From positions 1-64,000 of the forward strand of contig JAFGXR010000034.1 of the NCBI GenBank assembly GCA_016936555.1: 64,000 bases of DNA. Direction: 5' to 3'. The notes beneath the pieces are model-generated. The model was not told the origin of the DNA and made no database searches. It saw only the letters and a program-made list of their open reading frames with translations. A program made the position numbers and the translations under genes. This document shows, piece by piece, positions 4,606 through 14,680 of this stretch. How positions within the stretch are numbered: position 1 is the first letter of the stretch; each line of letters begins with the position of its first letter. Origin of the DNA: Spirochaetales bacterium. GTDB taxonomy: Bacteria; Spirochaetota; Spirochaetia; DSM-2461.

Positions 4606-5954
4606 TGAATAATCCTCATCTCTTTCCAGAAGCCCAGCCTGTAACGGATAAACATGGCCAGCCCCAGAAAAACTACAAAACTGATAAACCCGAGCCATAC
4701 GACCAGGGGGTGTAAAACTAAAACCTTAATCATTATCCACGCCAGTAATGCCAGAATCCAGTGCATGGCCACGGAAATATACATGACCCATTTCGTATCG
4801 CCGGCTCCCCGGAGCGTACCGGAAAATACAAGCTGGACCACATCGGCCATGATATAAATCGAAGCGAGACGCAGCATGGATTTGGAAAGGGAGACGACGG
4901 CCCCGTCGGCCCCCGACAGCCCCCGGGCGAAGACACCGACCAGCGGCCCGGCCAGAAATACAAAAAGCATGACCATGGAAAAGCCGTATACCGCTCCCAC
5001 TTTCATGGCCAGATGTGAAACCCTGAGAGCCCCCTCGGGATTATCGGCTCCCATCTGCTGGCCCACAAGCGACGTTATGGCAAACCCCAATCCCAGCATG
5101 GGAATAAAGGCGATCATATCGTAATTGAAGGTTATTGTCACGGCGGCGGCCACATCGGCCGAATAGGAGTGCATCATCTGGACAAAGAGATTGAAGGCGA
5201 AAACATTGAGAAAGAGCTCGATACCGGCGGGAACGCCATAGCGAAGAAGCTTTCCCATAATGGGCTTATTGAATTTCCAGACCTCCGGACCGTGATGTTC
5301 CCTGTATATCTTATGCCTGAGAAAAGCTATGACGAGAATCAGGCTGATGAGGAAGCTTCCGGCAAGAGTTCCGACGGCCGCTCCGCTGATCCCCATTTCG
5401 GGAAAACCGAATTTCCCGAAAATAAGAACATAATTTACAGGGATATTGATTAACATACCGGCCAGATTGGCATACATGACGGTTCCGGTTTTGCCTATTC
5501 CCAGGAAAAATCCGGCAAATGCCGTCCGGATTAAAGCAAATATACCGCCGAGCATTAATAGGCGGAAATAAGTGGTTTCCAGAACGATCTGCTCGGGAGA
5601 GTGCCCCGAAATCTGAAAAAAACGGCTTACGAGAGGAATAAAAAGAAGCCCAAGGGGATAAAAGAGGACGGACAACCTGATGCCCTGTGTCACAGTGCTG
5701 ACGCAATTGCCCTCCTCTCCGGCTCCGTAGTACTGGGCGGAGAGGGCATTTACATAGCCGACCGTTCCCGTAAAGAGGCTCATAAAAACAAAGGAGGACA
5801 GTCCTCCGCTCATGGCGGCGGAAATATGAGCCTTGCCCAGCCAGGAAAGAAAGAGGCGGTCGGCAAACATCATGACCGTTTCCGAGGCCTGGGAAATAAT
5901 CATGGGCAGAGCGATTATCAATAATGCTTTGAGATCGGGTGTTCTGGAAGACAT
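4602..5954 (-). CDS. MATE-family efflux transporter
   Basis: 450 aa polytopic protein, 'ALPMIISQASETVMMFADRLFLSWLG' MATE N-terminus. Confidence 0.92.
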   Translation of the reverse strand: MSSRTPDLKALLIIALPMIISQASETVMMFADRLFLSWLGKAHISAAMSGGLSSFVFMSLFTGTVGYVNALSAQYYGAGEEGNCVSTVTQGIRLSVLFYPLGLLFIPLVSRFFQISGHSPEQIVLETTYFRLLMLGGIFALIRTAFAGFFLGIGKTGTVMYANLAGMLINIPVNYVLIFGKFGFPEMGISGAAVGTLAGSFLISLILVIAFLRHKIYREHHGPEVWKFNKPIMGKLLRYGVPAGIELFLNVFAFNLFVQMMHSYSADVAAAVTITFNYDMIAFIPMLGLGFAITSLVGQQMGADNPEGALRVSHLAMKVGAVYGFSMVMLFVFLAGPLVGVFARGLSGADGAVVSLSKSMLRLASIYIMADVVQLVFSGTLRGAGDTKWVMYISVAMHWILALLAWIMIKVLVLHPLVVWLGFISFVVFLGLAMFIRYRLGFWKEMRIIQ

Positions 5955-12050: not shown

Positions 12051-13208
12051 TTATTTGGATTCAACTCTGTTGCGCCCTTTCGATTTGGCTTCATAGAGGG
12101 CGATATCGGTATTTTCCAGCAGTTCCTCTTTATTCCGGGCATCCATATCAAAAGAGGTCACGCCGAAGCTGACGGTAAAGCGGATATCCTGCCCGTTGAA
12201 AGGATGATTGTTCATTTCTACTATTTTTCTGATTCTTTCGGCGGTTTCAACGGCATTCTTTTTTTCCGTATTGGGCAGAAGAATCATGAATTCCTCTTCA
12301 CCGTACCGGGACAGGACATCATTGATCCTCAGGTTTCTCTCGACAATTGTTTTAAATGCCATCAGAACGGAATCTCCGGCCAGATGGCCGTGTCTGTCAT
12401 TGATCTCCTTGAAATGATCAATATCCCCCATAAGGAGCGAAAAGGTGAGGCTTTCTCTTTTGGACCGGGCGATTTCTCTATTCAATTCATCGAGAAAAGC
12501 TCTTCGGTTCAAAGCTCCGGTCAGGGCATCGAGCCGGGCTCTCCTTTCCAGATCATCTTCGAGGACTGCACAGGAAATCCAGATCAGAGAAAAGCCCGAA
12601 TTGATCAGGAAGAGAATAAGAACGATGAAATAAGCTGCGAAAACAAGGTCGGGATCTACGGGACTTCCGGGATTCAGTTCCAGAATTGCAAATGCAACCC
12701 TGAGGAGAGAATACGCGGAGACAAGCAGAAAGCCGGCAGCCATGTTGTTTTTCTGCCTGGAGAGCCCTCTTCTGCCGTCGAGAAGAAAAAGAATGGCTCC
12801 GTAAACCGATTCTCCCATCAGAAAAGTATTGATGATGATAATCGCCGGAAAAGAGGGCATATCAAAGAGAACGATATATACTAGAGCACCCGCCGTCAGA
12901 ACCAGAAGAAACCAGTGGAGCCACTGCGCAGGCAAAATCACCTTCAGAAAAGACGCCGACCCCAGTATGAAAAAGATATAGGCAAGGATAATCAGAACGT
13001 TACTGCCCGCCAGGGAAATAACATCGGGAATGAGCGGTTTGAAAGATGAGAGGAGCAGTCCGGCCAGGAGCAGCAGATCTCCGTAGGCAAAAAAGCGGAT
13101 ACTGAAAAAGCGCCGGTTATCAAATGCAAAACGGAACAATCCGACTGAAATGAGAAAAGAGAGAATCATGGTCACCAGACCGAGGGTTTTTATATCGGGA
13201 AACTGCAT
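12051..13208 (-). CDS. Membrane diguanylate cyclase (GGDEF domain with degenerate GEEEF-type active site)
   Basis: C-terminal 'DALTGALNRRAFLDELNREI...GDIDHFKEINDRHGHLAGD...YGEEEFMILL'; N-terminal TM helices. Confidence 0.93.
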   Translation of the reverse strand: MQFPDIKTLGLVTMILSFLISVGLFRFAFDNRRFFSIRFFAYGDLLLLAGLLLSSFKPLIPDVISLAGSNVLIILAYIFFILGSASFLKVILPAQWLHWFLLVLTAGALVYIVLFDMPSFPAIIIINTFLMGESVYGAILFLLDGRRGLSRQKNNMAAGFLLVSAYSLLRVAFAILELNPGSPVDPDLVFAAYFIVLILFLINSGFSLIWISCAVLEDDLERRARLDALTGALNRRAFLDELNREIARSKRESLTFSLLMGDIDHFKEINDRHGHLAGDSVLMAFKTIVERNLRINDVLSRYGEEEFMILLPNTEKKNAVETAERIRKIVEMNNHPFNGQDIRFTVSFGVTSFDMDARNKEELLENTDIALYEAKSKGRNRVESK

Positions 13209-13261
13209 ACTTTTATTCTAAAAGGTTAAATAGGATAAATCGAACAGAAAATTGGAAAACT

Positions 13262-13294
13262 GCACGGAACAGCTTGATTAAGGCGGTTCCGTGC
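13262..13294 (+). promoter_or_regulatory. Hairpin in the tyrS leader region
   Basis: Perfect 9-bp inverted repeat GCACGGAAC (13262-13270) / GTTCCGTGC (13286-13294), 15-nt loop containing AAGG. Confidence 0.6.
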
Positions 13295-13389
13295 TTTATT
13301 CTCTCTTTATGAGAATTTCTGCATTTTCGGTGCTCAGCTATTATTACCTCGCCAAAGTCCCTGACAGGCCACCTCTGCAGAAATTGTAA
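13291..13389 (+). CDS. Candidate Tyr-rich leader peptide of tyrS, 32 aa if GTG start; alternative ATG at 13309 gives 26 aa
   Basis: Frame reads (V/M)LYSLFMRISAFSVLSYYYLAKVPDRPPLQKL*; three consecutive Tyr codons TAT TAT TAC at 13339-13347; AAGG 7 nt before GTG; followed by terminator and tyrS. Confidence 0.65.
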   Translation: MLYSLFMRISAFSVLSYYYLAKVPDRPPLQKL

Positions 13390-13410
13390 TTTCATTATAC
13401 ATGCAATTTC

Positions 13411-13446
13411 AGACCCGCAGGTTTCGGCCTGCGGGTCTTTTTTTTT
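13411..13446 (+). terminator. Intrinsic terminator/attenuator immediately upstream of tyrS
   Basis: AGACCCGCAGG-TTTCGG-CCTGCGGGTCT perfect stem followed by a T run of about 9, ending about 22 nt before the tyrS ATG. Confidence 0.9.
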
Positions 13447-13468
13447 ATCAAATCCGGGGAGGAAGAAA

Positions 13469-14680
13469 ATGGATCTGAATCATGAAGTGGAAAGACAGAT
13501 GGAGATTTTATCATCGGGAGCAGCGGAAATTATTCCGGATAACGGGCTGAGAGAGAAGATTCGCAGTTCTATCGGGAATGGAATCCCCCTGAGAGTAAAG
13601 GTGGGAATCGACCCCACATCACCTCATGTTCACCTGGGGCATATGGTCGTTTACGGAAAACTGAGACAGTTTCAGGACCTGGGGCACAAGGCGGTCCTCA
13701 TAATCGGGGACTATACGGCGAGGATAGGAGATCCGACAGGAAGGAACAAAGAAAGGGCGCCGCTGACCGAAGAGGAAGTAAGGGCGAACAGCCTCACCTA
13801 CAGGGATCAGATTTTCAAAATCGTCGATGAATCAAAGACGGAGGTCCATTTTCAGAGCCGAGGTTTTGATACATTGACTCTCCAGGAAATCATGACAACG
13901 GCATCAGCTTTTTCGACAGCCCATATGCTCACCCACGAAACCTTCAGAAAGAGGCTGGGAAAAGGGGACAGGCTCTCTCTCCACGAGCTTTTCTATCCTG
14001 TCCTCCAGGCCTGGGATTCCCTGCTGGTCAGATCCGATGTGGAACTGGGCGGGCTCGATCAGAAATTCAATATCCTCTGCGGCAGAGATCTGCAGAAAAG
14101 CAGAGGAATGTCGCCCCAGGCGGCTCTTTTCATGCCCCTTCTCGAAGGGACCGACGGAAGAAAGATGTCCAAAAGCTTCGGAAATCACATTCCCGTCAAT
14201 GCCGATCCGCAGGAGAAGTTCGGAAAAGTCATGTCTATCAGTGATAATCTGATCATCCCCTGGTTTACCCTTGCCGCCCAAAAGAGCGGAGAGCAGATAA
14301 GCCTGCTGAATGAGCGGCTGCGGAATGAAAATCCGAGGGATATAAAAATGGAACTGGCCTCTGAAATAGTCAGAATCTACCACGGAGCTGAAGAAGCGCA
14401 GAGATGCCGACTCGGATTTGTCAATCAGTTCAGCCGCGGAGAGATACCTGAAGAGATCCCCCGCTTCTTTCTTGGGAGCAGAGAAATGAAACTGACGTCG
14501 ATCTTAAAAGAATCCGGTTTATACCCATCCATAAGTGAAGCGCGAAGACTCATTGTGCAGGGAGGGCTGAAAATTGATGGAAAGCAGATAGGCGATCCTG
14601 ATTTCACACTGACGCCGGGCGGAGACGGTTCTGTTATAATAAAAGCAGGCAAGAGGAAATACCTGAAAGTGAACAGATAA
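13469..14680 (+). CDS. tyrS: Tyrosyl-tRNA synthetase
   Basis: 'VKVGIDPTSPHVHLGHMVVYGKLRQFQDLGHKAVLIIGDYTARIGDPTGR', 'GRKMSKSFGNHI' class I signatures; C-terminal S4-like domain. Confidence 0.95.
   Translation: MDLNHEVERQMEILSSGAAEIIPDNGLREKIRSSIGNGIPLRVKVGIDPTSPHVHLGHMVVYGKLRQFQDLGHKAVLIIGDYTARIGDPTGRNKERAPLTEEEVRANSLTYRDQIFKIVDESKTEVHFQSRGFDTLTLQEIMTTASAFSTAHMLTHETFRKRLGKGDRLSLHELFYPVLQAWDSLLVRSDVELGGLDQKFNILCGRDLQKSRGMSPQAALFMPLLEGTDGRKMSKSFGNHIPVNADPQEKFGKVMSISDNLIIPWFTLAAQKSGEQISLLNERLRNENPRDIKMELASEIVRIYHGAEEAQRCRLGFVNQFSRGEIPEEIPRFFLGSREMKLTSILKESGLYPSISEARRLIVQGGLKIDGKQIGDPDFTLTPGGDGSVIIKAGKRKYLKVNR

Follow-up and report, generated by a model that had tools for sequence, protein, structure and literature searches.

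A predicted tyrosine-codon leader peptide attenuator upstream of a second tyrosyl-tRNA synthetase gene in Spirochaetia

The leader of tyrS2, a gene for a second tyrosyl-tRNA synthetase (TyrRS) in a Spirochaetales bacterium, very probably acts as a ribosome-mediated transcription attenuator, which senses the charging of tRNA-Tyr and controls this auxiliary synthetase gene. The locus lies in a stretch of 64,000 nucleotides, referred to here as the window (GenBank assembly GCA_016936555.1, contig JAFGXR010000034.1). An initial annotation of the window had proposed that ribosome stalling at tyrosine codons modulates termination before tyrS, and comparison with related tyrS loci supports this proposal.

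In the proposed mechanism, transcription would begin at the leader ATG or immediately beside it, and a ribosome would initiate translation on the leaderless RNA. When Tyr-tRNA is plentiful, the ribosome would reach the stop codon and cover region 2 (Table 1), so that the terminator forms and tyrS2 is off. When Tyr-tRNA is scarce, the ribosome would stall midway through the ORF, on the Tyr codons, and hinder formation of the hairpin between regions 1 and 2 (1:2), after which region 2 would be free to pair with region 3 and some of the 5' arm of the terminator, permitting RNA polymerase to read through into tyrS2. On a ribosome-free leader the 1:2 hairpin would form, leading to termination. From sequence we infer where the transcript starts, that initiation is leaderless, and that stalling and readthrough occur. 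The mechanism itself is classical, while the amino acid, the target gene, the phylum and the leaderless start look new.

The tyrS2 locus and its product

On the plus strand of the window, a promoter-like site, a 26-codon ORF, a 21-nt gap, a terminator, a Shine-Dalgarno sequence and the tyrS ATG follow one another in an intergenic span between tyrS2 and a divergent GGDEF gene, the ATG of which is at 13208 (Table 1). The initial annotation had described the short ORF with consecutive TAT TAT TAC codons, which is present in the sequence, and had correctly placed a terminator with a T9 tail 21 nt after it, followed by the tyrS Shine-Dalgarno sequence and ATG. The terminator arms, AGACCCGCAGG and CCTGCGGGTCT, occupy 13411-13438, the nine T residues occupy 13438-13446, and the Shine-Dalgarno sequence is GGGGAGG. 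The predicted fold of 13262-13468 is 5.4 standard deviations below dinucleotide shuffles (z -5.4), much of which is due to the terminator and a 5' hairpin. Shuffling the upstream region of the window tyrS 1000 times gave an ORF of 15-40 codons with three consecutive Tyr codons in 2 cases; for seven other leaders the count was 0-5 per 1000.

Table 1. Features of the tyrS2 leader region, in window coordinates
Feature	Position	Strand	Details and basis
Predicted sigma70 promoter	13274-13302	+	-35 TTGATT 13274-13279, 17 bp, -10 TATTCT 13297-13302
Predicted transcript start	about 13308-13310	+	Expected from promoter position
Leader peptide ORF, 26 codons, MRISAFSVLSYYYLAKVPDRPPLQKL	13309-13389	+	ATG 13309, TAA 13387-13389; no Shine-Dalgarno sequence, probably leaderless
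Tyr codons TAT TAT TAC, candidate regulatory	13339-13347	+	Inside 15-nt block AGCTATTATTACCTC, identical in G011
Region 1, AATTTCTGCA	13314-13323	+	Codons 2-5; predicted partner of region 2 when the leader is ribosome-free
Region 2, CTGCAGAAATTGTA	13375-13388	+	ORF end and stop codon; predicted to pair with region 1 or region 3
Region 3	13402-13429	+	TGCAATTTC 13402-13410, GCAG 13417-13420, GGCC 13426-13429; stall-state folds of G000 and G011
Intrinsic terminator	13411-13446	+	11-12 bp GC-rich stem, nine T; sequence, folds, G011 identity
tyrS2, second tyrosyl-tRNA synthetase, of type 2, 403 aa	13469-14680	+	Synthetase and S4 domains; Pfam PF00579, PF01479, PF22421; NCBIfam TIGR00234

The product of tyrS2 is nearest to the solved structures 6bqy, 6byq and 1h3e. 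A housekeeping type-1 tyrS, ~31% identical to tyrS2, is found on another contig of the genome. Of 395 genomes sampled from the class, 367 have type-1 tyrS and 10 have type-2 tyrS, with further type-2 members in other samples. A strong type-1 match was present in all tested genomes with a leader-bearing type-2 gene except G491 and G543, the assemblies of which are <80% complete; this tally leaves out G607, G630, G613 and G616. Elsewhere in the class, genome G453 contains two type-1 genes (G453:C30 and G453:C112).

Several observations concern the surroundings of the locus. Downstream of tyrS2, a 290-amino acid protein encoded at 14760-15632 matches no Pfam family, and this neighbor is also found in G011, a genome of the same genus. 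G011 has a nearly identical segment between the start of the GGDEF gene and the leader promoter (13209-13250). The GGDEF gene may also be leaderless, with a minus-strand TAGAAT 6 nt ahead of its ATG.

Conservation of the leader and its alternative pairings

The TyrRS of G011 is 80% identical to that of the window, and its gene is preceded by the leader MKISVIFANSYYYLYQDLYWPILQKL. Identity between the two leaders is complete in region 1 (8/8), the Tyr block (15/15), region 2 (12/12), region 3 (7/7) and the terminator (36/36), or 78/78 positions in total. The spacers are identical at 4/14, 12/25 and 11/16 positions (27/55, ~50%), the first two of these flanking the Tyr block.

Comparison of related tyrS upstream regions, as the initial annotation had advised, revealed a Tyr run and a terminator at 16 loci, those of the window and 15 other spirochaete genomes. 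A leaderless-looking Tyr-rich ORF followed by a terminator precedes type-2 tyrS in 13 Spirochaetia genomes from several families, and a Tyr-rich leader cassette precedes type-1 tyrS in three genomes. A terminator kept after loss of the Tyr run, which the annotation had named as contrary evidence, was found at none of the tyrS loci compared. Carriers in one genus are G390, G607, G630, G613 and G616, with leaders such as MKRFNLRNQYYRPYSLHLLRGGMRY and MKNVMTVNKYYYRYNGSFLPGGGMKG. The leader of G491 is MLIITSYYYYIDSKMRRFRPPE; other carriers include G520, G490 and G543 (YYYY or YYY), G525 (YYYY) and G403, which has YY only and is the weakest. The type-1 cassettes are YYYYY leaders in three species of genus g4, which belongs to the window's own family. 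Apart from the Tyr cluster the leaders are mutually unlike, and the distance from stop codon to T-run is 38-64 nt in the 12 leaders measured. A search of the regions upstream of long ORFs in the loci examined, 282 in total, gave 11 strict matches, all of them before tyrS and two of them alternative starts of one locus, and the upstream regions of the non-tyrS control genes within this set contained no such Tyr-rich ORF.

No leader was found before the type-2 tyrS genes of G030, G409 and G501, at the other type-2 tyrS loci scanned in the phylum, or in the 85 type-1 upstream regions scanned outside g4. One type-1 match (L228) was rejected as AT-rich and lacking a terminator, and G502 was left out of the leader tally, its contig beginning inside the gene. 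In a protein tree, 12 leader-bearing type-2 TyrRS share a single clade with the leader-free enzyme of G030 (bootstrap 98, SH-aLRT 93). The type-2 TyrRS of G409 and G501, encoded by genes without a leader, cluster with clostridial enzymes, and T-boxes precede some of the clostridial genes; the G403 TyrRS has a very long branch that makes its placement impossible. A simple account of these sequences would be one old gain of the leader with loss in G030, the type-1 leaders of g4 being separate.

Within the window leader, region 1 pairs in predicted folds with TGCAGAAATT (13376-13385) of region 2. This 1:2 hairpin has 10 bp in the window and fewer in G011, which shares the first 8 nt of region 1, and it forms when leader intermediates are folded with no ribosome present. 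Since region 1 precedes the Tyr codons, a ribosome stalled at those codons would occupy the loop of the 1:2 hairpin and not region 1 itself. In the alternative antiterminator pairing, GAAATTGTA (13380-13388) pairs with TGCAATTTC of region 3, and additional pairs form between CTGC (13375-13378) and GCAG and between GGCC (13367-13370) and the GGCC of region 3. Region 3, with which both region 2 and GGCC 13367-13370 pair in the antiterminator, extends over the 5' arm and loop of the terminator, which is thereby invaded. This fuller set of pairings goes beyond the helix described in the initial annotation, which was thought to compete with the terminator base only.

Masked folds, in which a ribosome was placed either at the first Tyr codon (stalled) or at the stop codon, distinguish the two states. 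In the stalled state the end of the ORF pairs with the terminator region in every member tested. With the ribosome at the stop codon, the model gives little structure, if any, until the terminator sequence is complete, and then the terminator forms. Relative to shuffles, the stall-state fold of the window has a z of -0.47 and those of the other leaders range from -0.42 to -2.15; all eight leaders lie on the stable side, only two of them below 5%, with the window at 32%. The same test on proven E. coli leaders gave z of -0.9 to -3.2, pheM and hisL being weak. At stalled-state equilibrium the window terminator still wins (P 0.98), and the terminator is also favored in four of five E. coli leaders (trpL, pheM, hisL and thrL). 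Because proven E. coli attenuators score similarly, the energy test is not decisive for the antiterminator. The annotators' failure to draw a convincing antiterminator was fair for the window taken alone, and the folding that they had suggested yields alternative pairings with a window antiterminator that is weak by energy; relatives of the window supply stronger comparative evidence.

In the genus g69 leaders, the region 2 position at column 69 pairs with column 49 (1:2) and with column 106 (2:3), and column 106 pairs with column 136 (3:4). These columns read C/G/C/G in G390, U/A/U/A in G607 and U/A/U/G in G630, with every pair kept, and an inner antiterminator pair changes from GC to AU. This covariation involves those three sequences and pairs picked by eye from folds; a permutation control gave 113/500 and 164/500, by which chance was not rejected, and is underpowered with three sequences. 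In genus g4, AGGGGCTGT at the end of the ORF is predicted to pair with ACAGCCCC of the terminator, invading it, and a small hairpin enclosed by the antiterminator, read from the sequences, changes from ACGAT:ATCGT to AGGGT:ATCCT. For the group, the folds of tested members and the g69 position indicate an antiterminator that would be mutually exclusive with both the terminator and the upstream hairpin.

Leader start and alternative explanations

The position of the promoter and the missing Shine-Dalgarno sequence suggest that the leader ORF probably starts leaderless. With manually entered sigma70 hexamer weights, which underlie all promoter scores given here, the window promoter scored 10.6, the best in the interval -200 to +160 around the leader ATG (next 7.4), and the fraction of shuffled segments reaching this score was 0.002. 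Its -10 element ends 6 nt before the ATG, and G011 has TTGATT-17-TAATCT in the corresponding position. In 12 leaders, the top-scoring sigma70-like site of the ~360 nt scanned ends 6-12 nt before the ATG, and two of four further leaders fit this spacing, giving 14/16 in all; in the AT-rich G607 and G630 the top-scoring promoter is elsewhere than the leaderless position. A convincing Shine-Dalgarno sequence is absent before all leader ATGs tested, a weak match in G390 overlapping its -10. It is unlikely, against this background, that translation of the leader involves a longer 5' UTR, whether through a start at GTG 13291 or through a more distant upstream promoter, with attenuation otherwise the same, although the GTG is in frame and weaker promoter-like sites were found upstream. 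The initial annotation had offered both 13291 and 13309 as starts. The ATG at 13309 stands; the GTG was rejected, as it lies within the predicted promoter and the sister genome G011 keeps only the ATG. A 9-bp hairpin over the GTG (13262-13294), also pointed out there, does add to the fold z and was likewise rejected as part of the switch, being absent in G011 and upstream of the predicted start. Because promoter-like sites end just before the leader ATG, the GTG is an improbable start and this hairpin would be outside the RNA. Transcription starting downstream of the leader had been raised as an objection to attenuation; the predicted start coincides with the leader ATG instead. Genes in the same window show the leaderless layout too: the long ORFs at 5954 (-), 8028 (-), 47479 (-) and 55066 (+) have a promoter-like site that ends 6-7 nt before the start codon and lack a Shine-Dalgarno sequence, making them candidate leaderless genes, so this organism may commonly use leaderless starts.

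Other readings depart further from ribosome-mediated attenuation. The terminator is strong alone and the window antiterminator weak, as would be expected of a constitutive partial terminator before tyrS2 accompanied by a meaningless Tyr-containing ORF; however, the Tyr cluster is tyrS-specific and kept at 16 loci with otherwise unlike leaders, the stop-to-terminator distance is similar across loci, and conservation with G011 is limited to the Tyr codons and pairing regions, making this explanation highly improbable. Hardly more room is left for nascent-peptide arrest of the kind known for TnaC and macrolide leader peptides, sensing something besides Tyr-tRNA charging: peptide-mediated stalling at Tyr runs is compatible with the sequence, but the peptide is unconserved beyond Tyr across families, the target is the cognate synthetase, and the trpS version described below has Trp in place of Tyr. 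Control by a T-box, a tRNA-binding riboswitch present before clostridial relatives of this TyrRS (tyrS homologues L002, L004, L005 and L079), is exceedingly unlikely. The RF00230 T-box covariance model, which does match the clostridial homologues, had no match in the window at gathering score or among the weak matches listed for 13200-13500, nor was a T-box found in the spirochaete leaders scanned, and the leader is ~138 nt long with translated features conserved instead. No other Rfam family reached its gathering score in these searches; Trp_leader (RF00513) scored 14.7 bits (gathering 41, E 2.2).

Related systems and biological meaning

A similar arrangement precedes a second trpS of this genome (G000:C99; L273 1304-1560), where a Trp-Trp-Trp leader, MNRISFVKLNSFILWWWLNR, and terminator-like hairpins are found before the gene. 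The promoter of the trpS2 leader, TTGACA-18-AATAGT, ends 6 nt before the ATG of this leaderless-looking ORF. The other trpS of the genome (L274) has no such leader, and none was found before the genes of this genome for synthetases of the PF00133 and PF00587 families.

The tyrosine genes of Firmicutes are usually T-box controlled. In two uncultured Firmicutes, L008 (labelled Lachnospira) and L010 (Eubacteriales), a Tyr-rich leader, MNQNFKSTLYLYSYYYRRICL, is located ~300 nt before tyrS, with an SD-like GGGAG, downstream terminator-like hairpins and no Rfam T-box.

Among known systems, the E. coli trp, phe, his and thr leaders and pheM-pheST likewise combine a run of cognate codons, a terminator and mutually exclusive helices, with similar fold statistics. 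The proposed attenuator differs from them in its amino acid (Tyr rather than Phe, Trp, His or Thr), its target tyrS, its occurrence in Spirochaetia, its probably leaderless ORF and, in the window, the placement of region 1 5' of the Tyr codons. Control of a synthetase gene by codons for its own amino acid has been described for trpS and leuS (PMC1262725) and for Streptomyces trpS1, an extra, antibiotic-resistant synthetase under attenuation (Vecchione and Sello, 2010, doi 10.1128/JB.00290-10, as cited in PMC4787780), and trpS2 of this genome looks very similar. In contrast to trpS1, the present system involves another phylum and amino acid. Mycobacteria, in which many transcripts are leaderless, contain short leaderless upstream ORFs that are likewise rich in the amino acid to which the genes after them relate, here cysteine (PMC4633059). 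These ORFs concern cysteine genes of Actinobacteria, their authors call the proposal speculative, and that part of the paper describes no terminator switch. T-box control of tyrS/tyrZ in Firmicutes (Williams-Wagner, 2015, as cited in PMC9437257) shares the signal, the target gene and related TyrRS enzymes, whereas T-box RNA binds tRNA directly, without a leader peptide, and none was found here. In the literature found, classical synthetase attenuators were those of pheST, trpS and leuS, with tyrosine genes assigned to T-boxes (PMC1262725), and the open-licence literature yielded neither a Tyr-codon leader peptide for tyrS nor a leader-peptide attenuator in a spirochaete.

If the attenuator is real, tyrosine and the Spirochaetia would join leader-peptide attenuation, and attenuation would appear to work on leaderless transcripts. 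The leader would also constitute a ready-made in vivo sensor of failing tRNA-Tyr charging and would suggest a purpose for spare synthetases. By likeness to the auxiliary trpS of Streptomyces, tyrS2 may back up the housekeeping TyrRS, either in emergencies or as an inhibitor-tolerant enzyme. More tentatively, and with the balance slightly against it, leaderless mini-genes of cognate codons could be a general way in which some Spirochaetia silence spare synthetases (TyrRS-2 and TrpRS-2) until charging by the main enzyme fails, e.g., under a synthetase inhibitor. They would then represent a translation-sensing alarm for back-up synthetases.
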